This document shows positions 6,627-49,860 of a stretch of 64,000 bases of DNA, one piece after another. Under the pieces are notes generated by a model. It was not told the origin of the DNA and searched no databases. It saw only the letters and a list, made by a program, of their open reading frames with translations. The position numbers and the translations under genes were made by a program. Positions within the stretch are counted from its first letter, which is position 1. Each line of letters starts with the position of its first letter. This DNA is from Mucilaginibacter geliditolerans (GTDB lineage Bacteria > Bacteroidota > Bacteroidia > Sphingobacteriales > Sphingobacteriaceae), in the NCBI RefSeq assembly GCF_014200495.1, contig NZ_JACHBY010000010.1:62001-126000 (forward strand). Reading direction: 5' to 3'.

Positions 6627-7670
6627 TTACTGTTTACTACCAGGTATCAAAGCCTGCAACAAAAGTTGGTTCCATACTTTTGCTGTCTGATCATACAAAC
6701 TGAACTTAACGGCGAAGTTAAAAACGCCCCATGAAAATCCATGTAGTTCCGCTTGCTGCCTTATGCAGCTAAAGTATAGCGCTCTGGAGATAGTATCGGC
6801 ATGATCGCCAGCACCGAATTCTCCCAGAAACACCGGGCGATTATTTTTCTTCGCCCAGCTGGCTATAGCGTCCATCGTATGGATAATCGCGTTCCTTTCC
6901 TGTTCAGTGTTTTGCCATTTAGTACCGATCCATTCGCGGGGTTTGCCCATGGGGAACCAATCTTCTCCCTGCATGGTAAAATGAATAGGATCGTAATAAT
7001 GGATGGTAAGGACCAGGTAATCATCCTGCGGCAATTGCAGATCGTTTAACCTATACACCAGGTTATAAAATGAAGGCCCAACAATAACCGGGCGCGTAGG
7101 ATTTGTTTCTCTTATAATTACCAGTGCATCCTTAAAATAATCATTCCAAACCATATTGAGCTGATCATGCGGTTCGGCCATTACTTCAAACATTACCTGT
7201 TGGGGTTCATTCCGGTAATGAGCTGATAATTGTTCCCAAAGACTTAAAAACCGTTCACGGTAAACAGCGGGTTCCTTCATTAACTGATCATCCAGGTGAT
7301 TATCCAGTATAATAGCCAAACCGTGTTTTTTCGCTTCGCGGATAGCCCAGTCTATTCTTGCTAAAAACTGCGCATTAATGGTGTACGGAGCTTGAGAGTT
7401 CATGCGGGTTATCCACTGTACAGGTAAACGTACTGCTGTAAAGCCCGCATCTTTTATCAGTTTAAAATCGCTGGCCTGTAGTGTGTGCCCCCAGTCGCCT
7501 TCCTTTGGCGCATCAAAAGTAAAGGCTATGTTTATAGTTTTGGCCAGATAACCGTTAACGGTATGAATATCGGCTGTTTTTGATACGCTTGTTTTCATTG
7601 CATAAATAGGCGGACCGGAAATAACCAGCAGAAGTATAAGCAGCAAAAATTTCCGGCAATGGCGATGCAT
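6627..7670 (-). CDS. Secreted glycoside hydrolase family 5 (endoglucanase/mannanase type)
   Basis: A Sec signal lies in the first 25 residues (LLLILLLVISGPPIYA). The catalytic TIM barrel shows the GH5 blocks in order: AGFTAVRLPVQW (Arg81), an IILDNHLDD strand with the conserved His, FEVMAEPHD (acid/base Glu166 inside the NEP-type motif, here A-E-P), LTIHYYDP and FLGEFGA (nucleophile Glu284). Length, 347 aa, fits a single-domain GH5 without a carbohydrate-binding module. The family cleaves beta-1,4 glucans, mannans or xyloglucan; the subfamily cannot be named by eye. The Ala in place of Asn before the acid/base Glu is unusual and worth checking. It is convergent with the bestrophin gene, 22 bases apart. 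Confidence 0.85.
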   Translation of the reverse strand: MHRHCRKFLLLILLLVISGPPIYAMKTSVSKTADIHTVNGYLAKTINIAFTFDAPKEGDWGHTLQASDFKLIKDAGFTAVRLPVQWITRMNSQAPYTINAQFLARIDWAIREAKKHGLAIILDNHLDDQLMKEPAVYRERFLSLWEQLSAHYRNEPQQVMFEVMAEPHDQLNMVWNDYFKDALVIIRETNPTRPVIVGPSFYNLVYRLNDLQLPQDDYLVLTIHYYDPIHFTMQGEDWFPMGKPREWIGTKWQNTEQERNAIIHTMDAIASWAKKNNRPVFLGEFGAGDHADTISRALYFSCIRQQAELHGFSWGVFNFAVKFSLYDQTAKVWNQLLLQALIPGSKQ

Positions 7671-7836
7671 ATGCTAATATAACTATATGTTTATCCACAC
7701 GAAGCATCTTTCGGCGAATAACATTATCAGGGGTATAACAACTGGTAATAAGCAATAAATGGCGTTAACATTTTGCTATTCACTTTTAATTTGTTGTATA
7801 TTAGTTTATAAACTTAAATAGCCTAACCGTTTATAA

Positions 7837-8409
7837 ATGGAAGTATTTAGCCACATAAAATATGTAATTGCAATAACCCTTAGTTTTAGCATAGCACATT
7901 TACTCAGGGGTACAGTAAAATTCATCCAGCACCCTAACCGGGTAAAGCCCTATATCACCCATTTGTTGTGGGTAATATATATGTATTTAACCCTTATCCA
8001 CTTTTGGTGGTTCGAGCTCAGGCTAACCGAGATTAAGCAGTGGTATTTTTTCTCGTACTTTTTCATCGTGCTGTACATCACCAATTATTATGTGATATGT
8101 ACCATCCTGTACCCCGACGATATTAACGATTACAAAGACTATAAGGACTATTTCTTTTCCCGTCGGGGATGGTTTTTCGGCCTGCTGTCAGTTGCTTTTA
8201 TTGCCGATATTTTTGATACACTGATAAAAGGCACAGATTATTTTTACCATTTTGGATGGGAAGTACCTGTCAGGAATGCGGTACTTTTAATACTTTGCTT
8301 AGTAGGCATAAAGGTTAAAAATCCTAAGTTCCATTTAGCGCTGGTCATACTGTTTATTTTATACGAGCTCCTCTTTATAGCACGGTTGTATGATATCCCA
8401 ATAAAGTAA
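7837..8409 (+). CDS. Multi-pass membrane protein of unknown function, 190 aa
   Basis: About six hydrophobic helices cover almost the whole protein (for example YVIAITLSFSIAHLL, LLWVIYMYLTLIHFWWFEL, YFFSYFFIVLYITNYYVICT and the last LALVILFILYELLF). Charged loops carry HPNRVKPY and DDINDYKDYKDYFFSRRGW. I recognise no enzyme or transporter motif. The coding frame is intact and starts at an ATG after an AT-rich leader. It could be a member of a small uncharacterised membrane family of Bacteroidota. Confidence 0.6.
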   Translation: MEVFSHIKYVIAITLSFSIAHLLRGTVKFIQHPNRVKPYITHLLWVIYMYLTLIHFWWFELRLTEIKQWYFFSYFFIVLYITNYYVICTILYPDDINDYKDYKDYFFSRRGWFFGLLSVAFIADIFDTLIKGTDYFYHFGWEVPVRNAVLLILCLVGIKVKNPKFHLALVILFILYELLFIARLYDIPIK

Positions 8410-8433
8410 TAACGGATAATAAACGGTTAATAT

Positions 8434-8468
8434 TTGTATAGAATCATTCGGGTCAAAGCTTAACTTTG
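8434..8468 (+). promoter_or_regulatory. Putative sigma-A-type promoter of the aminopeptidase gene
   Basis: A TTG at 8434-8436 and TAACTTTG at 8461-8468 match the Bacteroidota -33 and -7 (TAnnTTTG) elements. The 24-base spacer is slightly longer than usual. The ATG is 22 bases downstream. Confidence 0.45.
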
Positions 8469-8490
8469 TCGTCATTTTAACACCGTAATT

Positions 8491-10266
8491 ATGACACACA
8501 AAGAAAAGTTGAGTGCTATACGCCAGCAGATGAAAGCTAATGGTGTAGCAGCATATATCATCCCCTCGTCTGATCCGCATATCAGCGAATACCTGCCCGA
8601 TTTTTATAAATGCCTGTACTTTGCGTCAGGTTTTACAGGGTCAGCCGGAACATTGGTGATCACCCAGGATTTTGCAGGCTTATGGACCGACTTCCGCTAC
8701 TTTGTACAAGCGAACGAACAGCTTGAAAACAGCGGTTATGAACTGGTAAAACTAAAAATACAACACGCTCCTGAATACATACAATGGTTGCACGATGTGC
8801 TGGATGACCATGCCGTTGTAGCTTTTAATGATAAGCTGTTATCCGTTTTATTAGGCGAACTGCTGGAAAAACAACTCGCCGATAAACAGATCGTATTTAA
8901 AAGCTTCGACTTTTTAGATTCAGTTTGGGCCGATAGACCGGCGTTGCCAACTGCTCCCGCTTTTTTGATAGATGAAAAATATACAGGCCAATCTACAACT
9001 GATAAGTTATCCGCATTAAGGCAATCATTAAACACATCAAAAGCAAGTCATCATTTCATATCCTCATTGGATGATATTGCCTGGTTATTTAACATCCGTG
9101 GTAAGGATGTGAGCTATAACCCGGTAGTTTTAAGTTTCGCGCTCATCAGTGCTGAAAATGCCTCTTTGTTTATTGATTCGGCTAAATTATCAACAGAAGA
9201 TAAAGACACGCTTCATAAAGCCGGCGTGCAAATTTTGCCTTATGATGATATTGCAACATCCTTAGCCGCATTGCCTGCCGATAGCAGCGTATTGATAGAC
9301 CCAAAACGAAACTGCTTTGGCTTGTATAAACAAATACCTGCATCGGCAACTATTATACAAGAGCTTAACCCGACTACGCTTTTCAAAGCCCTGAAAAACG
9401 AAACCGAGGTGGAGAACGTGCGCACTGCCATGGTAAAAGACGGTGTTGCCATGACCCGCTTTTTTAAATGGGTTGAAGAAAACATAGGCAAAATAAAGAT
9501 CACCGAGCTTTCAGCTGCCGAAAAACTGCAGGGCTTCAGGGCCGAGCAGGATGGCTTTGCAGGTATAAGTTTCAACACTATTGGCGGGTACAAGGGCCAT
9601 GGTGCATTGCCCCACTACTCAGCAACACCTGAAAGCGACAGCGAAGTATTAGCCGAAGGATTATTTTTGGTTGATTCGGGCGGACAGTACTTTTATGGCA
9701 CTACCGATATTACCCGCATGATACCCATGGGCAATAATACTGAGGAAGAAAAAACCGATTACACACTGGTGTTGAAGGCGATGATTGAGGGCTCAAAAAC
9801 CTTATACCCTAAAGGCACCTGTGGTTACCAGATAGATGCTATTTGTCGCCGCCCATTATGGGACCACGCCATTAATTATGGACATGGTACAGGTCATGGC
9901 ATTGGTTTTTATTTAAATGTGCATGAAGGTCCACAGGTATTTAACCCAACCAACGTTGCCATACCTGTTGAGCTGGGTATGATCACCTCCATTGAACCGG
10001 GCATATACCGCCCCGGCAAACATGGCGTGCGTATTGAAAACCTGGTGCTCACCATTAAACACAGCACCAATGAGTTTAACGAGTTCTACGCCTTTGAAAC
10101 ACTTACCCTGGCATTGATAGATACATCATTGATCCAAAAAGACCTGCTGGAAAAAAGCCACATCAACTGGCTCAATAATTACCACCAGCTGGTGTATGAA
10201 AAACTGAGCCCGCATTTATCTGCTGATGAGCAGGCGTGGCTTAAGGAGAAAGCGAAAGCGATTTAA
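8491..10266 (+). CDS. Xaa-Pro aminopeptidase (M24B, long three-domain form)
   Basis: The enzyme removes N-terminal residues that precede proline. Its 591 residues equal the eukaryote-like aminopeptidase P1 architecture: two creatinase N-like domains (SDPHISEYLPDFYKCLYFAS, then the HHFISSLDDIAWLFNIRG segment near 190) and a C-terminal pita-bread domain from about 310. The metal ligands are all in place: LVDSGGQYFYGTTDITR (two Asp), GHGTGHGIGF (His near 465-474), SIEPGIY (Glu near 500) and GVRIENL (Glu near 515). The tail HLSADEQAWLKEK is also typical. It is likely cytoplasmic, as there is no signal peptide. The gene stands alone between a promoter-like site and a strong terminator. Confidence 0.93.
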   Translation: MTHKEKLSAIRQQMKANGVAAYIIPSSDPHISEYLPDFYKCLYFASGFTGSAGTLVITQDFAGLWTDFRYFVQANEQLENSGYELVKLKIQHAPEYIQWLHDVLDDHAVVAFNDKLLSVLLGELLEKQLADKQIVFKSFDFLDSVWADRPALPTAPAFLIDEKYTGQSTTDKLSALRQSLNTSKASHHFISSLDDIAWLFNIRGKDVSYNPVVLSFALISAENASLFIDSAKLSTEDKDTLHKAGVQILPYDDIATSLAALPADSSVLIDPKRNCFGLYKQIPASATIIQELNPTTLFKALKNETEVENVRTAMVKDGVAMTRFFKWVEENIGKIKITELSAAEKLQGFRAEQDGFAGISFNTIGGYKGHGALPHYSATPESDSEVLAEGLFLVDSGGQYFYGTTDITRMIPMGNNTEEEKTDYTLVLKAMIEGSKTLYPKGTCGYQIDAICRRPLWDHAINYGHGTGHGIGFYLNVHEGPQVFNPTNVAIPVELGMITSIEPGIYRPGKHGVRIENLVLTIKHSTNEFNEFYAFETLTLALIDTSLIQKDLLEKSHINWLNNYHQLVYEKLSPHLSADEQAWLKEKAKAI

Positions 10267-10367: not shown

Positions 10368-11312
10368 TTATAACTTACTCATTGTTTTATATAAATCCTT
10401 CAGATCGCCTGATTTTAAATTAAAAGACAAGGAAGTATGCCTTGAATAAATTGTTTCCCCTGTACCCGAATTGATAACACATACGATTTTGCTTGAGCTG
10501 TCCTTGATAAACAACAGGTAATATATAGGCTTATTTTCATTCAGGATCAGCGAATCCAGCCCCTTTTTCGTAACGACTTTGTATGGTGCATGATAATCTG
10601 CCAACACATTACTGGCGTCGTATGTTCCAGTGTCATTTCCAACAAAAGTATTGTATTTAATAAAGTTAAAATCAGGCAGGTATAGCGTACTATTCGCTAA
10701 TTCGGGTAGCTGTTCTTTATTGGTAATATCATCGTAAGCCTTAATCTTTTTGCCAGCACAAAGCAATATGGTTAATTGTTGCATATAGTTTTTTAGCATA
10801 CCTGGGCTCCAATTATACAGTGCTCCCCCGCCATCGAAGTCCATGTCGTTAAAAAAATCTCTGATCTTAGAAAAGCTTCTTGAAATGAAAGCTTCCGGGG
10901 ATACGGAAAGGGCTATGCAGGCTATTGGGTCTTCATCGCTTTGTTTAAGCGCACGGTCTTTTTTGAAGAATTTATCTTTACAGGTCCAAAAACAGAGATA
11001 ATAATAGATGTTGGTAGTATTATTTTCTGTTACATACGTAGCTTCCAAACTTAAAAAACTGTCTCCCGGGCTAATATTTACATCAGGATCATTACCCGAA
11101 AGTAAGCGTATATTTTTTGTCAGTGTCCAATTTTCTTGAAGCGCACTCAGATAACGGTTGGCATCTGGGAAATTAACGTTTTTAACCATCACATAGGTGG
11201 TGCCGTTTCTTATATTATCAAGTTTCCGGGCATCCACGATAGTAATCTGGGCATTGGCATTCAGGACAAGAAAAGCCCATAAAAGAGTGATGAGTGTAAG
11301 CTTTATGTTCAT
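10368..11312 (-). CDS. Exported protein of unknown function, 314 aa
   Basis: A clear Sec signal peptide (MNIKLTLITLLWAFLVLNANAQ, written in full it is 22 residues so only its ends matter: Met-Asn-Ile at the start, Asn-Ala-Gln at the cleavage site) precedes a soluble mixed alpha/beta body. Visible features are FWTCKDKFF with a Cys near 120, a GGGALYNWSPGMLKNYMQQL segment, and a beta-rich C-terminus with YYLLFIKDSSSKIVCVIN. No known domain is recognised. It converges with the aminopeptidase gene on a shared terminator. Likely periplasmic. Confidence 0.7.
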   Translation of the reverse strand: MNIKLTLITLLWAFLVLNANAQITIVDARKLDNIRNGTTYVMVKNVNFPDANRYLSALQENWTLTKNIRLLSGNDPDVNISPGDSFLSLEATYVTENNTTNIYYYLCFWTCKDKFFKKDRALKQSDEDPIACIALSVSPEAFISRSFSKIRDFFNDMDFDGGGALYNWSPGMLKNYMQQLTILLCAGKKIKAYDDITNKEQLPELANSTLYLPDFNFIKYNTFVGNDTGTYDASNVLADYHAPYKVVTKKGLDSLILNENKPIYYLLFIKDSSSKIVCVINSGTGETIYSRHTSLSFNLKSGDLKDLYKTMSKL

Positions 11313-11371
11313 GACAAGGTTGAAATTCCAAATTTAATATTTTTAACGGTATTTCTTAAAAGGTTTCCATT

Positions 11372-11430
11372 GCTCCCGCTGTTCGAAGTTTCCAAATCGA
11401 ACCCCAATACGCGTAGTCTCCGACTACAGC
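11372..11430 (+). repeat. Dispersed ~58 bp repeat, copy 1
   Basis: It begins CCCGCTGTTCGAAGTTTCC and ends in the hairpin GTAGTC-TCC-GACTAC (11413-11427). Related copies lie at 14575-14631, 19261-19320 and 20461-20516, with a partial at 19321-19341, all in the same orientation. Confidence 0.8.
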
Positions 11431-11543
11431 AAAATAATTCTCTCATTTCCTCCACATTTTGTTGACTTTTGATTGTTTTTTATGTAATATTGATATTACA
11501 ATCGTTCGTAAAGTCGTTATTTATTATACCAATTATAGATCTT

Positions 11544-11990
11544 ATGAAAACGCTCGATAAAATTCATGAATGGGGTGACAGTCATTACCCAAAATGGTTA
11601 GATTTTGTAAGGATCGCCCTCGGATTAGTCCTCATATGGAAAGGGATTGAGTTTATATTTAATCTCAATGTACTCGCAGATTTCCTGAACGAAACCGGGT
11701 TGACGGATGAAATAGGCACGTCAGTATTTTTAACTTTATTAACATACCTCATCATCGCTTTGCACCTTGCAGGCGGCATTTGTATTGCCCTGGGTATACG
11801 TACCCGTTTATTTTGCCTGCTTAATTTGCCGATACTGTTTGGCGCTGTATTCCTGGTTAATTTCCGGGAAAACATATTCAAACCTTATTCCGAATTCTGG
11901 CTGTCGCTGTTCGTCCTGCTGGGGGTTATCTGCTTTTTTGTGGAAGGCAACGGTTATTTGGCCATTGAACGTGGAAGAGATGGAATGTAG
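11544..11990 (+). CDS. DoxX family membrane protein
   Basis: The ATG at 11544 is preferred over one 75 bases upstream, because the protein then begins MKTLDKIHEWGDSHYPKW and the extra residues would add a hydrophobic stretch not expected in the family. Four transmembrane helices follow: FVRIALGLVLIWKGIEFIF, then one near 62-80 (VFLTLLTYLIIALHLAGG), one near 88-105 and one near 120-140. The ARIALG-LIWKG start and the HLAGGI-LGIRTR segment fit the DoxX/DoxD-like family (PF07681 or its relatives), quinone-linked or oxidative-stress membrane proteins of poorly defined function. Length 148 aa is standard. Confidence 0.75.
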   Translation: MKTLDKIHEWGDSHYPKWLDFVRIALGLVLIWKGIEFIFNLNVLADFLNETGLTDEIGTSVFLTLLTYLIIALHLAGGICIALGIRTRLFCLLNLPILFGAVFLVNFRENIFKPYSEFWLSLFVLLGVICFFVEGNGYLAIERGRDGM

Positions 11991-12014
11991 TTGTGATAGT
12001 GAACGATAAATTAA

Positions 12015-12108
12015 CTAATTTGAAGATTTGAGAATGTGCTAATTTGAAGATGATTTTAAATACACAAGTTGATTTTCAAATTTTCAAATCACCAAATTTT
12101 CAAATCAC
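12015..12108. repeat. AT-rich simple repeats upstream of efp
   Basis: CAAATTTTCAAATCAC occurs twice in perfect tandem (12077-12092, 12093-12108) and CTAATTTGAAGAT twice as direct copies (12015-12027, 12039-12051). The two sets are roughly inverted relative to each other, so the region could fold back. No gene is seen. Confidence 0.75.
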
Positions 12109-12167
12109 TCCATCACTAATTCACTCAATCACTAAATATTAAAAGCCATAATACTTAAAAAAGCATT

Positions 12168-12175
12168 TATCTTTG
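12168..12175 (+). promoter_or_regulatory. -7 promoter element of efp
   Basis: TATCTTTG matches the Bacteroidota TAnnTTTG box, 28 bases before the efp ATG. No clear TTG is found at -33. Confidence 0.5.
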
Positions 12176-12203
12176 CCAGCAAAATTTACGAATCATATAA
12201 TTC

Positions 12204-12764
12204 ATGGCAAAGGCATCTGAAATTAAAGTAGGAAATATTTTACGCTTCAACGGCGAATTGGTAACTGTTATAGAAGTGCTGCACCGCACACCGGGTAAAG
12301 GCGGCGCGTTCTATTTAGATAAATTCCGTAACATTAAAACCGGAAGAATTGTGGAGGCGCGTTTAGCAACCGACGAGCAGGTTGAAATTTGCCGTGTAGA
12401 AACCAATGATTACCAATACCTGTATGAAGAAGGCGACCATCTGGTGATAATGGATAATACCACATATGATCAGTTTAATATCCCAAAAGCATTGTTCGGC
12501 CCATCAGCAAAATTCCTGAAAGAAGGCATGAACGTGATCGTATCTTTTGAGAGTGAAGAACCGATTATGGCGCAGGCACCCAACTTTGTGGAGTTGGAAA
12601 TAACTTATGCCGAGCATGCAGTTAAAGGTGATACCTCTTCGGGCGCGCTAAAAACCGCGACGACCGAAAATGGTATTGAAATAAAAGTACCCCTGTTTGT
12701 AAACCAGGGCGATAAAATAAAAGTTGATACCCGCACCGGCGAATATGTTGAGCGTGTAAAGTAA
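12204..12764 (+). CDS. efp: Translation elongation factor P
   Basis: EF-P binds between the P and E sites of the ribosome and relieves stalling on polyproline. The 186 residues show all three domains. The KOW-like N-domain contains HRTPGKGGAFYLDKFRN, with Lys32 at the tip of the loop that is modified in other bacteria. The OB domain contains YQYLYEEGDHLVIMDNTTYD. The C-terminal OB domain has the family signature ENGIEIKVPLFVNQGDKIKV followed by DTRTGEYVERVK. The gene is monocistronic, with a -7 box in front and a terminator 20 bases behind. I cannot tell which Lys32 modification pathway applies; no EpmA- or YmfI-like gene is in view. Confidence 0.97.
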   Translation: MAKASEIKVGNILRFNGELVTVIEVLHRTPGKGGAFYLDKFRNIKTGRIVEARLATDEQVEICRVETNDYQYLYEEGDHLVIMDNTTYDQFNIPKALFGPSAKFLKEGMNVIVSFESEEPIMAQAPNFVELEITYAEHAVKGDTSSGALKTATTENGIEIKVPLFVNQGDKIKVDTRTGEYVERVK

Positions 12765-41683: not shown

Positions 41684-41712
41684 TAAAAAAACCCACTCGC
41701 CAGAGTGGGGTT
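41684..41712 (-). terminator. Intrinsic terminator behind the tRNA-like remnant
   Basis: On the minus strand ACCCCACTC-TGGC-GAGTGGGT is followed by seven T. It sits 17 bases after the tRNA-like 3' end, as it would behind a working tRNA gene. Confidence 0.8.
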
Positions 41713-41728
41713 AAATCATTGATTTTGA

Positions 41729-41785
41729 GGCTACTGATACTGGGCTCAAACCAGCGACCCTCTGGTTAATAGTCAAAAGATTCTA
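41729..41785 (-). pseudogene. Degenerate tRNA-Lys-like 3' half
   Basis: On the minus strand the T-arm is GCTGG-TTTGAGC-CCAGT (41755-41739), followed by ATCAGTA-G-CC as acceptor strand and discriminator. The variable region is AGGGTC and the anticodon-arm remnant TTTGA-CTATTAA-CCAGA. These correspond to the 3' half of a tRNA-Lys (normally TCTGA-CTCTTAA-TCAGA). The D-arm and 5' acceptor are absent, and several stem pairs are broken. This is the usual footprint of an integrase att site at a tRNA 3' end. Confidence 0.6.
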
Positions 41786-41927
41786 ATTATTGATACTTTG
41801 CTATTGTTATATATTATTGATTTTAAGCATATTATAAAATTTCATGTCCGTTATTTTTATGGATTTTTTGCTCAATTGTGTGAGAAATGTGTGAGAAAAA
41901 AATAGTGTTTTTAAAAAATAACGAAAT

Positions 41928-42258
41928 ATGGCTGTTAAAGTAAATTTATACCTTGACGAGCGGAAGATCGAAACAGGAGGAAAAGCACCTGTAAAGCTAA
42001 GGCTGTATATGTCGCGGACTGATATTAGGCATTACCATACGGGTCGTTACCTCCTATCGGAGCAATTTGATGAATCGTATTTAACAACTAAAAGACCTTA
42101 AAATTGCATTGGATGGCATCGTTGTTAAAGCCAGCACGATCATTTCAAAGATGGACGGTGTATTTGTATTGGCTAAATTTGAAAAGGAAATGTTTGGTGC
42201 GCCATTAGCAAACTTCGTAAAGTTTGTTTTTGGGCCTTACAGAAAAAACCGGTTGTGA
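41928..42258 (+). pseudogene. Truncated, frameshifted tyrosine recombinase (integrase)
   Basis: An ATG at 41928 starts MAVKVNLYLDERKIETGGKA then PVKLRLYMSR and continues to a stop at 42099-42101 (57 codons). This is the arm-type DNA-binding N-terminus of Bacteroidota integrases (PF17293 type). Just before that stop the next frame continues LKIALDGIVVKASTIISK then FVLAKFEKEMFG to 42258, the expected following segment. Nothing of the core-binding or catalytic domain remains. It faces the tRNA-like remnant 143 bases away. A dead integrative element is the simplest reading. Confidence 0.75.
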
Positions 42259-42383: not shown

Positions 42384-43313
42384 TTACTTTATAATTGTTG
42401 TAAGATCTTTCGCCATTTGTTTAGTAAAAGCCACTGAACCTGTTCCGGTCATGTGTAAAGCGTCGGCATAAAAATTATCTGGTAAACCTGGATAATTGAT
42501 ATTGTAATTGATATACGCTCCACCATTATTTTTTATTATGTCGCTACATTTTTTAAAGTGAGCCATAACATTATTTTTAATTTTAGCATCAACCACATAC
42601 TTAGTTTGATAAGGAGACTGGATAAAAATAAGCTTGATACCTTTCTTCTTTAAAAACCCGGCGATATTTTCGAGATTTTTATATTCCTCGTTGGTATTTT
42701 GATTGGGGAATTTAGTCAGGGAAACGTGAATGTCTTTTTTCTTTTTTTCCGCCAAAATTTTATCATCTAAATTTAATGATGTACCGCCGCCAACGTCAAA
42801 TTTTAAACAATCGTATCTATTGTTATCCAGCTGATCTGTCTTTATTTCTCTTCTTCGTTTAAATATTTCCAAAAGGTTGCTAAAGTTTTTTATATAATAA
42901 TATCCTAAATAGTTTTCACTTATGTTTGAGTTTTTAGGTATCGTATTATTGCGTTCTTCTAAAAAATCTTGCATAGTAGATGGGATGATAACATATTTAG
43001 GTTGATATTTATCTACATACTGATTAAGCAAATTGTAGTCATCAGCCATTTGCATGCTCCATACCCCAAAATTATAATATGATAATTTAAAATTGTTTAA
43101 CATAACATCGGTGTTAATGTTATCTATTGCGATAGAAGATCCTATAACCATAACATCAACGTGTTTTAATTTAATTCTTTTAAGTTCAAATACTTTGGCA
43201 TCAAATCCAACATTGTTTGATATGATGGGCAGGTAACCGCAATAAAATAAAACGATATAGAAAATAGTTATTGAGGAAACAAATAATAAAATTATTGTTA
43301 AGAATTTTTTCAC
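42384..43313 (-). CDS. SGNH-like membrane-anchored acyltransferase partner
   Basis: An N-terminal transmembrane helix (FLTIILLFVSSITIFYIVLF) leaves the rest outside the cytoplasm. Two SGNH hydrolase-fold landmarks are visible: VMVIGSSIAIDNI, block I with Ser59/Ser60, and ADALHMTGTGS near the C-terminus with Asp284 and His287 (the D-x-x-H pair). VIIPSTMQDFLEE and IKLIFIQSPYQTKY are strand/helix segments of the same fold. DltD, AlgJ, AlgX and PatB have this topology and act with an MBOAT to place acyl groups on extracytoplasmic polymers. It is last in the six-gene operon, seven bases after the MBOAT gene, and shares the operon's very AT-rich composition. Weak overall similarity, so the assignment rests on motifs and context. 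Confidence 0.65.
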   Translation of the reverse strand: MKKFLTIILLFVSSITIFYIVLFYCGYLPIISNNVGFDAKVFELKRIKLKHVDVMVIGSSIAIDNINTDVMLNNFKLSYYNFGVWSMQMADDYNLLNQYVDKYQPKYVIIPSTMQDFLEERNNTIPKNSNISENYLGYYYIKNFSNLLEIFKRRREIKTDQLDNNRYDCLKFDVGGGTSLNLDDKILAEKKKKDIHVSLTKFPNQNTNEEYKNLENIAGFLKKKGIKLIFIQSPYQTKYVVDAKIKNNVMAHFKKCSDIIKNNGGAYINYNINYPGLPDNFYADALHMTGTGSVAFTKQMAKDLTTIIK

Positions 43314-43320
43314 AACTTTA

Positions 43321-44796
43321 TTAAAATTTAAAATAGATAAATTGAGCTATTTTCGATGATCCGAATAAAAGTATCACAAATATTAGCGTATAATATAGTG
43401 CAACACGCAGTACCTTGCTTTTGATAAAATCAAATTGCAATGGATGTGGTTTATCACGCTGTAACCATTCTATACATAACATTATCACAATTAGGATGGA
43501 TGTAAAGAAAACGGTTGCCCTTTTTAAATTGGTAACACTATCGGCAGGAAAAATTGTAGGAATCGAGAATAAGCTCTTGGAAAAAAGATCCTTATAAAAA
43601 TCTACAGCCTGGCTTATACTATCACTGCGAAATAATATGAATGTGAACATTACTAAAATAAAGGTACCAAGCATGTTTCTAAATTCCTTAAACGAGGGCA
43701 GTACTTTTCCCATTACTAGCTTTTTCTTCTTATTTAAAGTTCCATTAAGTATTAATGGGATATAGTAAATACCATGAAGTACCCCGAACAAAACGAACGT
43801 CCAATTAGCGCCATGCCAAATACCGATAATAGTAAAGTTGATAAGAATGGCTAAGATTAATCCAAATTTACCATAATCTCTAAACGCTATACTTAAAGGC
43901 GAAAACACGTAGTCGGTAAGCCAGCTGGTTAAAGACATATGCCATTTGCGCCAAAATTCTGCAATATTTTGAGCGAAGAAGGGGTATTCGAAATTTCGCG
44001 TAATATTAAAGCCCAATAACCTCGCTATCCCAATTGCCATATCAGAATAGCCTGAAAAATCAGCATAAATTTGAATGGTATAAAAAAACGCACCCACTAT
44101 AAGAGAACTTGCCGGCAACGTTTGATATGAACTAAAAATTTGATTTGATATCATCGCGCAATTGTCGGCAATCACCATTTTTTTGAACAAACCCCAAGTT
44201 ATTTGTTTGGCGCCATCAGCTGCGTTAGCGTAGTCAAATACTCTTTTTTTCTCCAATTGTGGAATAAGCAAACCTGCCCTGTCTATTGGCCCCGAAATCA
44301 CACTGGGGAAAAACGCCACATACGAAAAGAAAACTACCCAGTCTTCTGTTGGTTTTATTTTACCTCTTTGAATATCAAAAAGATAACTAAGCGTTCTAAA
44401 CGTGTAAAAACTTATTCCCAGAGGCAGCAATATATTAATTACATGTAAGTTGTAACTTACGTGTAATGCTGAAAGCAGGCCTACAAAAGATTCTATAAAA
44501 AAGTCGGTGTATTTAAAATAAACCAATGATGCTATCGCGGTAACTACTCCCAAACCTAAAAGGGTACGTTTCGTTTTCACAGATAAATCCTTACCCATGT
44601 AATGGCCCAATATAAAATTAAGTAACGAGGTCGATATTAACAGCGACAGAAAATGCCAATCCCACCAGCAGTAAAAAACGTAGCAGCCAACTAACAGTAA
44701 TATGTTTTGAAGCTTTAAATTACGATTGACAATAAACCAATAAAGAAAGAATAATATAACAAAAAATACTACAAACTCCGGTGAATTAAAAAGCAT
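43321..44796 (-). CDS. MBOAT-family membrane O-acyltransferase (AlgI/DltB-like)
   Basis: Polytopic, 491 aa, with the family start MLFNSPEFVVFFVILFFLYW. Key blocks: LGISFYTFRTLSYLFDIQRG, FPSVISGPIDRAG, ITWGLFKKMVIADNCA, FSGYSDMAIGIARLLGFNI, NFEYPFFAQNIAEFWRKWHM then SLTSWLTDYVFSPL, and the catalytic IIGIWHGANWTFVLFGVLHG with His328. This matches the AlgI/DltB/PatA group (PF03062), which moves an acyl group from a cytoplasmic donor through the membrane. In this operon an acyl carrier protein is encoded four genes upstream, so the donor may be acyl-ACP, as for DltB and DltC. It follows the SDR gene by four bases. Confidence 0.92.
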   Translation of the reverse strand: MLFNSPEFVVFFVILFFLYWFIVNRNLKLQNILLLVGCYVFYCWWDWHFLSLLISTSLLNFILGHYMGKDLSVKTKRTLLGLGVVTAIASLVYFKYTDFFIESFVGLLSALHVSYNLHVINILLPLGISFYTFRTLSYLFDIQRGKIKPTEDWVVFFSYVAFFPSVISGPIDRAGLLIPQLEKKRVFDYANAADGAKQITWGLFKKMVIADNCAMISNQIFSSYQTLPASSLIVGAFFYTIQIYADFSGYSDMAIGIARLLGFNITRNFEYPFFAQNIAEFWRKWHMSLTSWLTDYVFSPLSIAFRDYGKFGLILAILINFTIIGIWHGANWTFVLFGVLHGIYYIPLILNGTLNKKKKLVMGKVLPSFKEFRNMLGTFILVMFTFILFRSDSISQAVDFYKDLFSKSLFSIPTIFPADSVTNLKRATVFFTSILIVIMLCIEWLQRDKPHPLQFDFIKSKVLRVALYYTLIFVILLFGSSKIAQFIYFKF

Positions 44797-44800
44797 AGGT

Positions 44801-45520
44801 TTAAATTATATTGGTTCCTGAATTAATGATCATATCAATACCGTTGATTTGAACAGATGCACTGCTAAGAAATAAAACGGCTTCAGCTACTTCTTCGGTT
44901 GTAAGTATTTTTTTTGATGGATTGCTATCCTTTATCTGTTCAATAACCCTTTCATCAATATCATTTGTGAAATTGGTTAACATAAACGATGGCGAAACGG
45001 TATTAGAAGTGATATTGTATCTTATATTTTCGGAAGCCCAAACTTTCGACAGTTGTTTTAAGTAGGCTTTATTTCCTACATATATGGATGAACCGGCAGG
45101 CGGTGTATTAACAAGCGCGGATGTTAAAATGGTGATAATCTTCCCACCTTTTTTTTTTCGGAAGTAACCGATAGCTGCCTGGGTAATGGAGATGGTTGGA
45201 ATAACATTATCTTGAAATTCAGTCAAAAAATCGTCTGTCGATATTTTATAAAAATGCGATTTCATAAAAGAGCCTGAATACGCATTATTTATTAACAAGT
45301 CCAATTCAATAGTTGCTATTTTTGTTTTTAGTGCTTCTACTTCATCTAAACTTTTAAAGTTGCATTTTATCGCGAAGGCATTTTTATGATCAGCTTCTAT
45401 CTTTTTTGCGTTAGATTCTGATTGATTATATGTAAAATACACGCTATGGCCTTCCTTGGCAAATTTACGCGTAATGGCCTCGCCCAAGCCTGAAGAACCT
45501 CCTGTAATCAATACGTTCAT
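44801..45520 (-). CDS. SDR oxidoreductase, 3-oxoacyl-ACP reductase-like
   Basis: A classical short-chain dehydrogenase of 239 aa. It has the nucleotide-binding ITGGSSGLGEAITRKF, LDLLINNAYSG (NNAG variant), catalytic Ser134 (TILTSALV) and Tyr147-x3-Lys151 (IYVGNKAYLKQ), and the PSFMLTNF motif after strand 6. A C-terminal LTTEEVAEAVLFLSSA and GIDMIINSG fit FabG-type enzymes. With the MaoC-like hydratase and the carrier protein it could reduce or oxidise the 3-position of an ACP-bound acyl group. Its start overlaps the MaoC stop by four bases (ATGA), so translation is coupled. Confidence 0.88.
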   Translation of the reverse strand: MNVLITGGSSGLGEAITRKFAKEGHSVYFTYNQSESNAKKIEADHKNAFAIKCNFKSLDEVEALKTKIATIELDLLINNAYSGSFMKSHFYKISTDDFLTEFQDNVIPTISITQAAIGYFRKKKGGKIITILTSALVNTPPAGSSIYVGNKAYLKQLSKVWASENIRYNITSNTVSPSFMLTNFTNDIDERVIEQIKDSNPSKKILTTEEVAEAVLFLSSASVQINGIDMIINSGTNII

Positions 45521-45912
45521 GACAAAATTCCTATTTGAATTTTTCCTTTGGCAAGAACCAATAGATCCTTACTTTTAAATTGAAATTTAAATTCGACGGC
45601 GTTAACCGAAGTGTATACTTCAGAAACATTTGCTTCAAAAAAAACAGTGTCATTTAAGTACACTGGATTTTTAAATTGGATGTCTTGTTTATGGATAATA
45701 ACGTCTTTAGTTGATAAATACTCACCTATAAAATAGGATAAAAAGCCGTTTAAAATATTACCGTGCATCACCTTCCCCTTAAATCCATGAGACAATGCAA
45801 ACTCATCATTTGTATGCAGCGGATTATTATCGTTAAATATGTTTATAAATCCCTTATAAACAGCTTCAGAAACGCAAAATTCCTTTTTGTAAGAATCTCC
45901 TACCGCAAACAT
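45517..45912 (-). CDS. MaoC-like (R)-specific enoyl hydratase / hydroxyacyl dehydratase
   Basis: A single-hotdog protein of 131 aa with the hydratase-2 active site FNDNNPLHTNDEFA (Asp28 and His33) and GKVMHGNILNGFLSYFIGEY, the conserved Gly-His-Gly loop. Length and motif spacing match PhaJ/MaoC (PF01575). It would interconvert 2-enoyl and (R)-3-hydroxyacyl groups on the carrier protein. Its start overlaps the ACP stop by one base and its end overlaps the SDR start by four, a tightly coupled unit. There is no ketosynthase in the operon, so the acyl chain must come from FkbH or another source. Confidence 0.87.
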   Translation of the reverse strand: MFAVGDSYKKEFCVSEAVYKGFINIFNDNNPLHTNDEFALSHGFKGKVMHGNILNGFLSYFIGEYLSTKDVIIHKQDIQFKNPVYLNDTVFFEANVSEVYTSVNAVEFKFQFKSKDLLVLAKGKIQIGILS

Positions 45913-46154
45913 TACACACCCTTGCTAATAATGCAATCCAACATTTCGCCTACATTTTTCCAGCTTTGAATTTCCTGAGAGGTAAACCTGGTTTTAAAGA
46001 GTTTCTCGATCGCTACAACCAATTGAATGTGATTTAATGAATCCCAATCTTCCACATCGTCGGCAGTTGTTTCATAGGTCAGTACAATATCTTCGTTATC
46101 GAGTACATCGATAAAAACAGCATTAACTTTCTTTAGAACGTCAATTTTTTCCAT
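45912..46154 (-). CDS. Acyl carrier protein
   Basis: 80 aa with the phosphopantetheine site DVEDWDSLNHIQLVVAIEK; Ser39 in DSL is the attachment residue. The acidic helix and the ETTADDVEDWDS leader fit carrier proteins of the FkbH-associated or D-alanyl carrier type rather than AcpP, which has a longer acidic helix 2. Its neighbour upstream, 14 bases away, is the FkbH-like gene. It would carry the acyl group handled by the MaoC-like enzyme and SDR and presented to the MBOAT. No dedicated phosphopantetheinyl transferase is nearby; a housekeeping one would be needed. Confidence 0.92.
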   Translation of the reverse strand: MEKIDVLKKVNAVFIDVLDNEDIVLTYETTADDVEDWDSLNHIQLVVAIEKLFKTRFTSQEIQSWKNVGEMLDCIISKGV

Positions 46155-46168
46155 TTTTCTTATTTTAA

Positions 46169-47896
46169 TTATTTAGTATTTATAAAATTCTTTTTTGGTG
46201 AGTAGTTATTTACATCAAGTAGCCATACGTTATTATCATTCTCTGATATAAAACCAAGATTTAAGTAATGATTTTTAACCATTTCATTTTTGGGAGTTGG
46301 TATGTATTCGCCTTTTAAATATTTAAAGCCATTTTCTTTGGCTATGGCTACGAGTGTATTTAAAACAAAATTTTCCATCCCTCTTTTTAGCACCCTGCAA
46401 CTCATAAACCAGGTATCGATAAATAGCACATCGGTTGATTCCTTTTCTAAAATCACAACGCAGATCAAACCATTATCCCCAAATTTATCTTCTAACGTAA
46501 AAGACAACGTGTGGGATTTATCCGATTTAGAAAGCTTTTCTATATCTGCTTCGGTATAACGTACAGTACGTAAATTAAACTGGTTTGACCGTTGCGATAA
46601 TTGCGCTACCCGAGGTGTATTAAAGTTGTTAAAGGGTTCAACCAGCGATAACATGTTTAAACTTTTTAGAAAATCACCCTCGTTAACAAATACCGATTGC
46701 TCAACAAGCCTTTTTGCCTCTGTTTGATACTGCTTAGTCCGTTCAGTATCCTCGTTTGAGTATGATACTGTATCAAATAAATTTAAAGTGTACAAGTATT
46801 CCAAATAATCGGCGGGGTCTACCGGTAATTCCGGAACTACAATGCCGGCTATATTTTCCCTTACGATATTTCGCTCAAAAGGATTGTCATCCAAAAAAAC
46901 CATCGAGTCGAAACCAATATTTAAAGTGCTTTGAATTTTTTTGATATTGTCAACCTTGTTCTCCCAGTTGGCAACAAAAACAGCGATATCATCCAAATGC
47001 AAAACCATATCGGGATGTTTTTCAAAAGGTTCTTTAGCAATCGATTCGGTATTTTTACTGCATATCGCTAAAATTACACCTCGGTTTTTTAGCTTTTTTA
47101 TCCAATATTGTAATTCTGTAAATGCTTTCCCAATACCCAACGTTCCAAGTTGAATATTCTCTAAGCCGTCATCTCCAATAATACCGCCCCACATCGTATT
47201 ATCGAGATCAATTATAAGGCATTTCCTTACACGCCCATTCATTGCGCCTATAGTATCAAGGGTTTTTGCGGCAACTTCAGGCAAAATATCAATACTCAAA
47301 ACCATTTCAGTATTAATATAAATAGATGTTTGAAATACTACCGATTTGCTAAACTGATTTTGAATTGATGAAAGGTCGCAAATATAAAAATCGGGATTTT
47401 GCGATGCAAAAACCATTAATTGATAGTTGAGCTTACGCAGCTGGAACAAAAAAGATATTTCGGTTTTATTAGCATAATTTCCAAAAACCGAGTCGTCAAT
47501 TTCCGGGAAATTATAGAAAATTATTTTTGCATTAAGGTTTGAACTTATTGTTGTGCGGATATTGCTTATTATCTCAAGCTGAGTATCGGCAAAACTGCCG
47601 TAATAATCTGGCTTTAATTTACTGTATTTGGAATTGAGTTTATGGGTAGATTGAAAAATGATAACAATTTCCGGCTTGAATTCATATAGTTCTGAAGATG
47701 GGTCGAATACCTGGCGTTCTATTTGATTAAAGTCGGCTTCAAAAATCTGAAGATCATATCCATAATCGTACCCAGTTCCCCGTAGCGCCTGCTGCAAAAA
47801 TTGAGTGGCTGTATCTCCTAATAAAGCTACTTTTATGGATTTCAAACCAGAAAAATTTCTTTTTAAATTCTTCTTAAGTTCTGAAAAACTTTTCAT
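46169..47896 (-). CDS. FkbH-like HAD-IIIC enzyme (acyl-ACP loader)
   Basis: 575 aa, three parts. Residues 1-215 are an SGNH-like N-terminal domain (KVALLGDTATQFLQQALRGT). Residues ~225-370 are a HAD subfamily IIIC phosphatase: IDLDNTMWGGIIGDDG (Asp230 and Asp232), LAICSKNTES and MVFLDDNPFERNIVRENI. The C-terminal ~170 residues are GNAT-like (LEDKFGDNGLICVVILEKES, then RVLKRGMENFVLNTLVAIAK). In FkbH, OzmB and similar enzymes the HAD domain dephosphorylates 1,3-bisphosphoglycerate and loads the glyceryl unit on an ACP. Many FkbH-like proteins lie in polysaccharide or flagellar-glycan clusters. It is first in the operon. The substrate here is inferred. Confidence 0.88.
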   Translation of the reverse strand: MKSFSELKKNLKRNFSGLKSIKVALLGDTATQFLQQALRGTGYDYGYDLQIFEADFNQIERQVFDPSSELYEFKPEIVIIFQSTHKLNSKYSKLKPDYYGSFADTQLEIISNIRTTISSNLNAKIIFYNFPEIDDSVFGNYANKTEISFLFQLRKLNYQLMVFASQNPDFYICDLSSIQNQFSKSVVFQTSIYINTEMVLSIDILPEVAAKTLDTIGAMNGRVRKCLIIDLDNTMWGGIIGDDGLENIQLGTLGIGKAFTELQYWIKKLKNRGVILAICSKNTESIAKEPFEKHPDMVLHLDDIAVFVANWENKVDNIKKIQSTLNIGFDSMVFLDDNPFERNIVRENIAGIVVPELPVDPADYLEYLYTLNLFDTVSYSNEDTERTKQYQTEAKRLVEQSVFVNEGDFLKSLNMLSLVEPFNNFNTPRVAQLSQRSNQFNLRTVRYTEADIEKLSKSDKSHTLSFTLEDKFGDNGLICVVILEKESTDVLFIDTWFMSCRVLKRGMENFVLNTLVAIAKENGFKYLKGEYIPTPKNEMVKNHYLNLGFISENDNNVWLLDVNNYSPKKNFINTK

Positions 47897-48418: not shown

Positions 48419-48916
48419 TTAACGGCCAAATTCCTGCACCCAATAACCGTTATAGCTATAAGCGCCCATTTCTACGTAAAGCGTATCCATCATAGCCTTG
48501 CAATGGTCCTCACTTTTTTCCCAGGCAAGCATTACATCGCCAATTGTAGCATATCCTTCAGCAATGTTTTCGCCTACGTACTGCCCGGTGTAGCCAGCGC
48601 TTATTGCCCTTTGTATTGGCGAAATACCTCCCTGCGAAATGTGACTGAAATAGTTGTTGGTATACATGTCGATAGCATGGGTTTGCGCGGCGGTAGCAAG
48701 TATATTGTTCCATACCAATTTTTTTACAGGCGGCATAGAATCCGGCCCGCATTTACAACCGTGGCTCCGAAGTTTGTTTACAGAATCGAGCATCGACAAC
48801 TCGATTTTACCACTTTGTATTGTCTGATCTTTTTTGCATGAATACAGAACAAAAAGGCAGACAAGCGCCGCAAAATTTAAAACCTTAACAGGATAAAAAT
48901 GGCATTTATTCATCAT
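48419..48916 (-). CDS. CAP-domain (SCP/PR1-like) lipoprotein
   Basis: The signal ends in lipobox LYSC (Cys27). The CAP domain is complete: LDSVNKLRSHGC, then LVWNNILATAAQTHAIDMYT, FSHISQGGISPIQRAISAGY, GENIAEGYATIGDVMLAWEK, SEDHCKAMMDTLYVEMGAYS and NGYWVQEFG. Two His residues and acidic residues line the typical cavity. CAP proteins (PF00188) in bacteria bind or modify ligands outside the cell; functions are rarely known. Two extra Cys (HGCKCGPD) near residue 55 are a feature of a Bacteroidota subgroup. It is isolated, with its promoter region toward the GH12 gene. Confidence 0.88.
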   Translation of the reverse strand: MMNKCHFYPVKVLNFAALVCLFVLYSCKKDQTIQSGKIELSMLDSVNKLRSHGCKCGPDSMPPVKKLVWNNILATAAQTHAIDMYTNNYFSHISQGGISPIQRAISAGYTGQYVGENIAEGYATIGDVMLAWEKSEDHCKAMMDTLYVEMGAYSYNGYWVQEFGR

Positions 48917-49104
48917 CCGGAAAATCTAAATATTTTATTAAAATCCAAATAAACATTAAAATTCTAACAAAAACATACCGGGAATAGTAGTTGCGCACTG
49001 TACTGAACATTTGTGGCCGTAAACATAATCAAACGGGCCATACCGCTTTGTTGCATGCAGATACATTTGTATACCAACAAAATATAAACTTTAAATTAAA
49101 AATT

Positions 49105-49860
49105 ATGAGAATTAAACAACAAGCATTATTGCTATTGGCAATTTCATGCACGGTTTTTGCCTGCCAAAAAAGTTCAGTTAAGCCGCAAAGTACCAATCCC
49201 AAAGTACTGGCCAATTGGTCGTCATCTGCACAATACGCCTCGTGGAATGCCGGCAGTGGTTACTATATCGAAAACAATATATGGGGAAGTGGCGCCGGCT
49301 TTCAATCTATTTGGGCAAACACCTACAGCAACTGGGGGGTATGGTCCGACCAGCCTAATACCAGTGGGGTAAAGTCATACCCAAATTCAGATTATGGTGT
49401 TCATCAAACGTTTAGTGGCTTACACACTGTTCAAAGCAGCTTTAATGTAACAGTGCCTAGCAGCGGTGCTGCTGCCGAAAGCACCTATGATATATGGTGC
49501 AATAACTATGCTTATGAAATTATGATATGGGAGAACTGGACCGGTGGCGTAAACCCAATTGCCGTCGGCTATAATGGCAATGGCACTCCAATAGCGACTT
49601 ACACGAATGTAACGCCTACTGCCGGAGGCCCAACTTATACCGTTTATGTGGGCTCTAACGGATCAAACGCTGTATATTCTTTTTTAAACAATAGCCAAAC
49701 ATCATCAGGAACCGTTAATATAAAGGATATTCTTAATTTTATTCAGAGTAAAGGGATAACTTTTACTACGCTGGATAAGGTTCAGTTCGGGTTTGAGATC
49801 ACTTCATCAAATGGTGGTCTTAATTTCTACTGCAACAGCTATTCAGCTACTGTTAACTAA
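49105..49860 (+). CDS. GH12 endoglucanase/xyloglucanase, lipoprotein
   Basis: The ATG at 49105 gives MRIKQQALLLLAISCTVFAC with lipobox VFAC (Cys20); the upstream frame from 48991 has no signal. The mature protein is a small beta-jelly roll with the GH12 signatures YYIENNIWG, STYDIWCNNYAYEIMIWENW (nucleophile Glu138) and KVQFGFEITSSNGGLNFYCN (acid/base Glu231). The length fits a bare catalytic domain. GH12 enzymes cut beta-1,4-glucan or xyloglucan. As an outer-membrane lipoprotein it could start the attack on the polymer, with the neighbouring GH28 on pectin. Confidence 0.87.
   Translation: MRIKQQALLLLAISCTVFACQKSSVKPQSTNPKVLANWSSSAQYASWNAGSGYYIENNIWGSGAGFQSIWANTYSNWGVWSDQPNTSGVKSYPNSDYGVHQTFSGLHTVQSSFNVTVPSSGAAAESTYDIWCNNYAYEIMIWENWTGGVNPIAVGYNGNGTPIATYTNVTPTAGGPTYTVYVGSNGSNAVYSFLNNSQTSSGTVNIKDILNFIQSKGITFTTLDKVQFGFEITSSNGGLNFYCNSYSATVN

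Follow-up and report, generated by a model that had tools for sequence, protein, structure and literature searches.

A Dlt-like operon of Mucilaginibacter geliditolerans with an FkbH-type loader: a probable carrier-protein-fed route for acylating a surface glycan

Which acyl group does a Dlt-like operon deliver when an FkbH-type protein stands where the adenylating loader is expected? The question is raised by a locus of Mucilaginibacter geliditolerans, within a stretch of 64,000 nucleotides (NCBI RefSeq assembly GCF_014200495.1, contig NZ_JACHBY010000010.1, positions 62,001 to 126,000) that we call the window. Six leftward genes encode an FkbH-like protein, an acyl carrier protein (ACP), a MaoC-like enzyme, a short-chain dehydrogenase/reductase (SDR), an MBOAT acyltransferase and an SGNH-like protein. 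The Dlt system (DltA, DltB, DltC, DltD and DltX) D-alanylates the teichoic acids of Gram-positive cell walls; Bacteroidota, being Gram-negative, are not known to contain teichoic acids. An earlier note on this DNA had read the six genes as a Dlt-like acyl-transfer operon in which FkbH replaces DltA, and this is supported by the surveys described below. As a whole scheme, we consider it rather probable that the operon encodes a carrier-protein-fed MBOAT-SGNH system that acylates a surface glycan with a C3 acyl group.

The layout is borne out by the open reading frame coordinates and domain scans (Table 1): junctions range from -4 to +14 bases, being +14, -1, -4, +4 and +7 in the order from FkbH to SGNH. 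FkbH scores 293 bits against TIGR01686 (cut-off 146.65) and 253.5 against PF21211 (FkbH_N), and its residues 3-381 have a solved relative in 3slr (BF1531). The MaoC protein reaches 41.9 bits (cut-off 27); its nearest solved relatives are 3-hydroxyacyl-thioester dehydratase 2 and an R-specific enoyl-CoA hydratase. The SDR matches adh_short_C2 with 118 bits and TIGR01830 with 121.8 bits, the latter below the TIGR01830 cut-off, and has 3-oxoacyl-ACP reductases as best matches and CylG and FabG as nearest solved structures. The weakest of the six domain matches are those of the ACP (PP-binding, 22.0 bits versus 20.8) and the SGNH protein (DltD, PF04914, 23.5 bits versus 22.7 across 120 residues, barely above the cut-off). 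A profile search of solved structures returned no strong relative of the SGNH protein, its matches being a weak one to an acylhydrolase (E 0.0025) and one to AlgJ (E 0.31). Domain scans found no AMP-binding (adenylating) gene, no ketosynthase and no second dehydrogenase among the six genes.

Residue counts, all taken from alignments with relatives, bear out the catalytic residues that the earlier note had assigned to the ACP, MaoC, SDR and MBOAT proteins. Ser39 of the ACP is conserved in 58/58 rows, Asp28 and His33 of MaoC in 21/21 and His328 of the MBOAT in 50/50; the SDR keeps Tyr147 in 27/29, Lys151 in 27/29 and Ser134 in 22/29 rows, which include unrelated SDRs from the flanks. The FkbH alignment comprises 62 rows, some of them cut, in which Asp230 and Asp232 are kept in 60/60 and Cys500, presumably the catalytic cysteine, in 59/59 aligned rows. 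For the SGNH protein the serine had been placed at 59 or 60. It is Ser60 that is conserved (38/38) and not Ser59 (18/38), with His287 in 37/37 and Asp284 in 28/37 aligned rows; among 20 aligned SGNH partners Gly58, Ser60 and His287 are invariant.

The MBOAT carries a C-terminal hexapeptide of the form F-x-Y-x-x-F. This motif terminates 45 of the 46 complete MBOATs near FkbH, the exception being FIYFQY in L054 (four further MBOATs run off the end of their locus and stand outside the 46). It is also found in 38/39 MBOATs from loci chosen without regard to FkbH, and it is therefore a trait of the MBOAT family. In PatA, an acyl-tyrosine within this FXYXXF motif has been demonstrated experimentally, according to the available excerpt of PMC12148441.

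The operon would work like both Dlt and PatAB and yet fits neither definition. As in Dlt, a phosphopantetheine carrier (Ser39) lies beside an MBOAT, loader, carrier, MBOAT and SGNH protein share one operon, and the MBOAT resembles DltB, being alignable to the DltB structure 6bug; the SGNH protein is a candidate DltD-like partner. Unlike Dlt, an FkbH loader takes the place of adenylating DltA and two carrier-tailoring enzymes are added. The Dlt-type assignment of the MBOAT stands insofar as it is DltB-like (59.8 bits versus a family cut-off of 27, and 173 bits against TIGR04091), but it is not a DltB: it remains under the equivalog cut-off of 375, and its shuttle motif is fused to the MBOAT itself as in PatA, with no DltX in the operon, the only part of the genome searched for one, since junctions of at most 14 bases leave no room. 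With PatA/PatB-type Gram-negative acetylation pairs it shares this motif, the conserved histidine (His328) and an SGNH partner; it differs in its dedicated ACP and loader, PatAB-type pairs being acyl-CoA-fed and carrier-less in the same excerpt (PMC12148441). There, this 2025 paper states that MBOAT/SGNH pathways other than Dlt have no similar carrier protein, and because it thus reserves the carrier for Dlt, the operon can be described as a Dlt/PatAB hybrid.

At its loading end, the operon resembles the FkbH loaders of methoxymalonyl and tetronate pathways, which combine FkbH with a stand-alone ACP and on-ACP tailoring (PMC7489565, excerpt). Unlike these, the product would be passed to a membrane acyltransferase and not to a polyketide synthase, and tailoring involves MaoC and SDR instead of two dehydrogenases and an O-methyltransferase. 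Similarly, the suomilide and varlaxin clusters combine FkbH, a methyltransferase and a carrier for 2-O-methylglyceric acid, by the deduction of their authors (PMC10143770, excerpt). This loading module of FkbH, methyltransferase and peptidyl carrier protein resembles, and is a precedent for, the methyltransferase/VOC variant of the cassette described below; it differs in being part of a nonribosomal peptide synthetase, and in those clusters the MBOAT is attributed to a different moiety.

How widespread is this arrangement? A scan of the genome collection for FkbH yielded 55 loci; the 47 from Bacteroidota (L012-L057 and L059), in which 5 kb ahead of FkbH and 7 kb beyond it were examined, serve as denominator, with only one counted of each of the pairs L005/L030, L003/L013 and L006/L046, which are the same places. 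An ACP is present in 46/47 (absent only in L056) and a same-strand MBOAT in 36/47. The neighbourhood check across Bacteroidota that the earlier note had proposed returned the window's six-gene order in six further loci, L019, L024, L027, L032, L035 and L121, the last found via MBOAT sampling; in L032 the sixth gene was assigned by its position and its GxS and DxxH motifs, as the profile did not recognise the protein. The first five genes occur in window order in L175, whereas the cassette genes are reshuffled in L040 and L042, the MBOAT precedes FkbH in L023, and L050 has an extra methyltransferase. Chance neighbourhood was considered and rejected: among 151 genomes of the family (own included, E<=1e-10) MaoC has three matches, each adjoining FkbH, and the genes co-occur across the 47 loci.

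The same question was approached from the MBOAT side. The MBOAT family occurs in 269/395 Bacteroidia genomes (E<=1e-60). Two samples were read with their flanks: 40 places from other genomes, being the 41 best less G562:C358, which lies near a contig end, and 40 stretches covering the 42 best-scoring places of a remoter MBOAT subclade. Carriers were detected with the cassette-ACP profile at E<=1e-4 in the first sample and 1e-3 in the second, so that unlike carriers may escape. A tree of 130 MBOATs places the window's protein in a 26-member clade whose members are all carrier-linked (local support 99), 24 of them to FkbH (window included) and two, L120 and L125, to an adenylating enzyme; no other large clade of the tree is purely carrier-linked. 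On this tree carrier linkage changes 11 times, compared to a mean of 41.7 and a minimum of 35 in 200 shuffles (L178, labelled S, was omitted; L164 is the same place as L042, one carrier locus being counted twice, and the FkbH of L184 is distant). An earlier version, in which all 48 carrier-linked MBOATs fell on one side of one branch, had to be given up when the wider sample broke the split; that first tree excluded two extra MBOATs as non-cassette, the first in L037 and the second in L029. Alignment columns 12 and 159 differ between carrier-linked and carrier-less MBOATs, the changes being conservative and the sample narrow, and we build no claim on them. Judged from these sequences, MBOATs gained or lost carrier feeding on more than one occasion, and within the sampling the lineage of the window's MBOAT appears carrier-fed irrespective of its loader.

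In the two Bacteroidia loci with an adenylating loader (L120, 2971-7808; L125, 430-5192) a DltA-like AMP-binding enzyme of the amino-acid adenylating type (275 and 263 bits against TIGR01734, whose cut-off of 560 is not reached) and a GNAT protein precede the ACP, followed by MBOAT and SGNH. The DltA-like enzyme and GNAT stand at the position of FkbH within the window's own MBOAT clade, which supports the exchange of DltA for FkbH. Apparently, these loci encode a variant of this export system for (N-acyl)aminoacyl groups.

Between loader and outlet the cassettes vary. FkbH, ACP and MBOAT occur without a recognised tailoring gene in 16/47 loci, whereas MaoC is present in 17/47 and SDR in 16/47, with 16 loci having both, one MaoC alone and none SDR alone; MaoC, SDR and MBOAT come together in 9/47. 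A methyltransferase is found in 12/47 and a VOC protein in 11/47, one or both together with an MBOAT and without MaoC in 10/47; the VOC proteins scanned match the methylmalonyl-CoA epimerase model with 35-57 bits, below the cut-off of 115. MaoC meets a methyltransferase or VOC gene only in L050 among the 47, and also in L174 (methyltransferase and MaoC, no SDR). MaoC and SDR, for which the earlier note had proposed a tailoring role, form a mostly paired module (16/47) that is optional.

A tree of 58 FkbH proteins, with several weak forks and some long branches, shows the tailoring genes scattered. Over 47 rows (the window and 46 loci, L057 being omitted for its split FkbH; 18 rows with MaoC) it requires at least 13 changes for the presence of MaoC and at least 10 for methyltransferase/VOC, counted without a shuffle control. 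With at least 13 changes, the tailoring module would have been repeatedly gained and lost. Within one close FkbH group (end branches about 0.02-0.03), L036 and L037 are untailored, L040 has SDR, MaoC and a split transketolase, and L033 has MaoC, SDR and a ketosynthase III (KASIII). By their gene content, FkbH and ACP look to be a loader core to which tailoring is added in swappable form: none, MaoC with SDR, or a methyltransferase and/or an epimerase-like VOC protein.

Table 1. Features of the operon and its surroundings, in window coordinates
Feature	Position	Strand	Details
FkbH	46169-47896	-	575 aa; FkbH_N domain, HAD domain, C-terminal FkbH region; predicted HAD-IIIC-type glyceryl loader; Asp230/Asp232, Cys500
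ACP	45912-46154	-	80 aa; stand-alone carrier, phosphopantetheine Ser39
MaoC / hot-dog dehydratase-hydratase	45517-45912	-	131 aa; Asp28/His33
SDR, FabG-like short-chain reductase	44801-45520	-	239 aa; Tyr147/Lys151
MBOAT membrane acyltransferase	43321-44796	-	491 aa; His328
Putative acyl-shuttle hexapeptide FIYFKF (F-x-Y-x-x-F), MBOAT C-terminus	43324-43341	-	Tyr488; function by reference to PMC12148441 (excerpt)
SGNH/DltD-like putative acyl-transferring partner	42384-43313	-	309 aa; GTG start; hydrophobic N-terminus; Ser60, Asp284, His287
Integrase-type N-terminus remnant	41928-42101	+	57 residues; Arm-DNA-bind_5, 26.8 bits; stops after it
tRNA-like stretch	41690-41800	-	resembles, by eye, T-arm and 3' end
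CAP-domain protein	48419-48916	-	upstream of operon
Glycoside hydrolase family 12 protein	48991-49860	+	upstream of operon

How could such a system work? By family and intact residues, FkbH would take the glyceryl group of 1,3-bisphosphoglycerate, remove the phosphate, keep the glyceryl on a cysteine and pass it to the phosphopantetheine of Ser39; the formation of glyceryl-ACP by FkbH-like enzymes is described for polyketide pathways (PMC7489565, excerpt). Glyceryl is the probable entry unit and default donor because in 16/47 loci no recognised tailoring gene accompanies FkbH, ACP and MBOAT, and glyceryl-ACP alone is probably usable. MaoC may then eliminate the beta (C3) hydroxyl to give 2-hydroxyacryloyl-ACP, that is pyruvoyl-ACP, whose keto group the FabG-like SDR would reduce to yield lactyl-ACP; that the pair mostly comes and goes together suggests two consecutive steps. 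Taken alone, this conversion of glyceryl-ACP to lactyl-ACP is plausible, though we hold it with less than even confidence. A lactyl unit would have a precedent in the bryostatin loading module. By homology to DltB/DltX and PatA, the MBOAT would translocate the acyl group through the membrane and attach it to Tyr488 within its FIYFKF, from where the SGNH protein, in the manner of DltD and PatB, would take it onto Ser60 and esterify a surface glycan.

Several observations weigh against parts of this scheme. The scanned neighbours of the window's operon include no glycosyltransferase. A same-strand MBOAT is missing from 11/47 FkbH loci (L013 and L054 do have an MBOAT, but on the other strand), and MaoC stands without SDR in L031 and L174. 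Most MBOATs of the family are carrier-less: 36 of 40 in the first sample, next to two with FkbH (L121, L138) and two with an adenylating enzyme (L120, L125), and 33 of 40 in the second, next to five with FkbH, one with ACP only (L167) and one on a cut contig with SDR (L178). The earlier note had named carrier-less, acetyl-type MBOAT neighbours as an outcome that would speak against its reading; this describes most of the family (36/40) but not the 26-member clade of the window. That clade is biased by sampling, as 22 members besides the window were picked via FkbH, the three found via MBOAT alone (L120, L121, L125) being carrier-linked too, and carrier-linked MBOATs outside it are scattered and form no single clade. 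As for chemistry, tetronate pathways place an acetyl group on the glyceryl-derived hydroxyl prior to elimination (PMC7489565, excerpt), and this operon has no acetyltransferase for such a step, which makes direct dehydration by MaoC uncertain. In L025 and L033, FkbH-ACP-MaoC-SDR lies beside a KASIII that retains Cys-His-Asn (triad read by eye), and ketosynthases also lie nearby in L062, L064 and L066; this fits a chain-elongating use.

These ketosynthases bear on an alternative in which the carrier-fed export is the same and the substrate of MaoC and SDR is a beta-ketoacyl or 3-hydroxyacyl group made with a ketosynthase of housekeeping fatty-acid synthesis, glyceryl being a starter or unused, so that a short 3-hydroxyacyl (e.g. 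3-hydroxybutyryl) or enoyl group is exported. The 3-oxoacyl-ACP reductases among the SDR's best matches and the hydroxyacyl-thioester dehydratase and R-specific hydratases among MaoC's solved relatives agree with it, as does the KASIII of L025 and L033. However, the operon itself has no ketosynthase, the KASIII query adjoins the FkbH set in just 2/16 MaoC+SDR loci (its other matches lie about 6-7 kb upstream of untailored cassettes in L046 and L048, and in the partial locus L011), and the 16 untailored cassettes make the FkbH product look like the default donor, which MaoC+SDR would supplement. We regard this alternative as unlikely. Of the two options that the earlier note had left for the acyl group, glyceryl-derived or short 3-hydroxyacyl, the former is retained for the probable entry unit, and lactyl is more likely here than the latter. 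Still less credit is due to an export of glyceryl or oxidised glyceryl, with the SDR as a dehydrogenase giving 2-hydroxy-3-oxopropionyl as in methoxymalonyl pathways and MaoC serving proofreading or hydration. The tetromadurin proposal, where dehydrogenases oxidise the primary hydroxyl of glyceryl-ACP (PMC7489565, excerpt), speaks for it; the FabG-like character of the SDR, the lack of a second dehydrogenase in the operon and the pairing of MaoC with SDR make it improbable. Finally, MBOAT and SGNH might be an ordinary acetyl-CoA O-acetylation pair, co-transcribed with an unrelated cytoplasmic pathway of FkbH, ACP, MaoC and SDR, for example for amino-sugar N-acylation. The MBOAT family is indeed common and mostly carrier-less, and 7/16 FkbH-MaoC-SDR loci are without a same-strand MBOAT. 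On the other hand, the 16 untailored loci share an MBOAT as their outlet, and all 26 MBOATs of the window's clade, sampled partly via FkbH, are carrier-linked through both FkbH and adenylating loaders, and we give this explanation little weight. The carrier-fed export of a glyceryl-derived group is the reading we retain.

Other loci illustrate how the parts can be combined. In one locus labelled only 'bacterium' and two from Alphaproteobacteria, a MaoC-SDR fusion of 418 aa adjoins FkbH and ACP (L062 6177-7433, to which the Pfam scan was applied; L064 7264-8520; L066 7263-8519); FkbH has 621-719 residues there, and the nearby ketosynthases are on the other strand. L052 holds a methyltransferase-ACP fusion (7091-8263, 390 aa) and L055 a methyltransferase-VOC fusion (10987-12294, 435 aa). 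The outlet differs between cassettes as well, with KASIII at this place in L025 and L033 and an Acyl_transf_3 protein, near a contig end, in L044. The split transketolase of L040 (N and C halves, 7475-9242) lies inside an FkbH-SDR-MaoC-ACP-MBOAT cassette and might supply the carrier with a further, ketol-derived C2 unit. Outside Bacteroidota, an Eubacterium locus (Bacillota; L058, 127-7118) has FkbH, VOC, a LicD protein, GNAT and ACP, and glyceryl/VOC chemistry seems linked there to a glycan-modifying LicD protein. GT2-like genes occur in 15/47 FkbH loci (profile with two seeds), and at least 15 of 129 scanned flanking proteins (203 listed) match Glycos_transf_2; some cassettes therefore lie within polysaccharide clusters. 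The scanned neighbours in the window are not of this kind, and the CAP-domain and glycoside hydrolase family 12 proteins upstream (Table 1) give no sign of belonging to the operon.

The genome that holds the operon (6.5 Mb in 26 contigs) has a single match to each of FkbH, the MBOAT and this ACP when searched by family, the ACP matching itself at a threshold of E<=0.01. The FkbH family as a whole is large: its scored clusters at 90% identity number at least 8000, every one at E<=1e-20. At E<=1e-30, FkbH is present in 10 of 151 family genomes, a count that includes the own genome and one weak partial match; across the phylum it is present in 17/395 (own included; E<=1e-60). The operon has a G+C content of 32-35%, compared to 37-46% in the flanks read, and looks like an acquired module. 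About 280 bases past its 3' end, within the same low-G+C stretch (41-48 kb), lies the integrase-type remnant of Table 1, possibly an island scar. The tRNA-like stretch has one partial genomic match (36 bases, 83%) and could be an attachment-site remnant; ARAGORN found no tRNA at this place.

What does this add to the known acylation systems? A search restricted to open-licence PMC papers gave no description of FkbH with MBOAT outside an aeruginosin review, and nothing that links FkbH to lactyl groups, to O-antigen or, together with MaoC, to polysaccharide, HAD-IIIC to MBOAT, or MBOAT to glyceric acid and polysaccharide. A carrier-linked MBOAT lineage contradicts the statement, in the available excerpt of PMC12148441, that only Dlt among MBOAT-SGNH pathways has a carrier.

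More broadly, we tentatively propose a modular platform in Bacteroidota, in which glycolysis-derived glyceryl-ACP would be converted to lactyl by MaoC and SDR, or to O-methyl or epimerised glyceryl by methyltransferase and VOC, and exported by carrier-accepting Tyr-shuttle MBOATs; the operon of the window may then esterify a surface glycan with D- or L-lactyl groups without drawing on lactate. Loader, tailoring and export parts interchange between loci. If the proposal is true, the acyl chemistry of the envelope would be partly predictable from gene content, as glyceryl, lactyl, O-methylglyceryl or aminoacyl.

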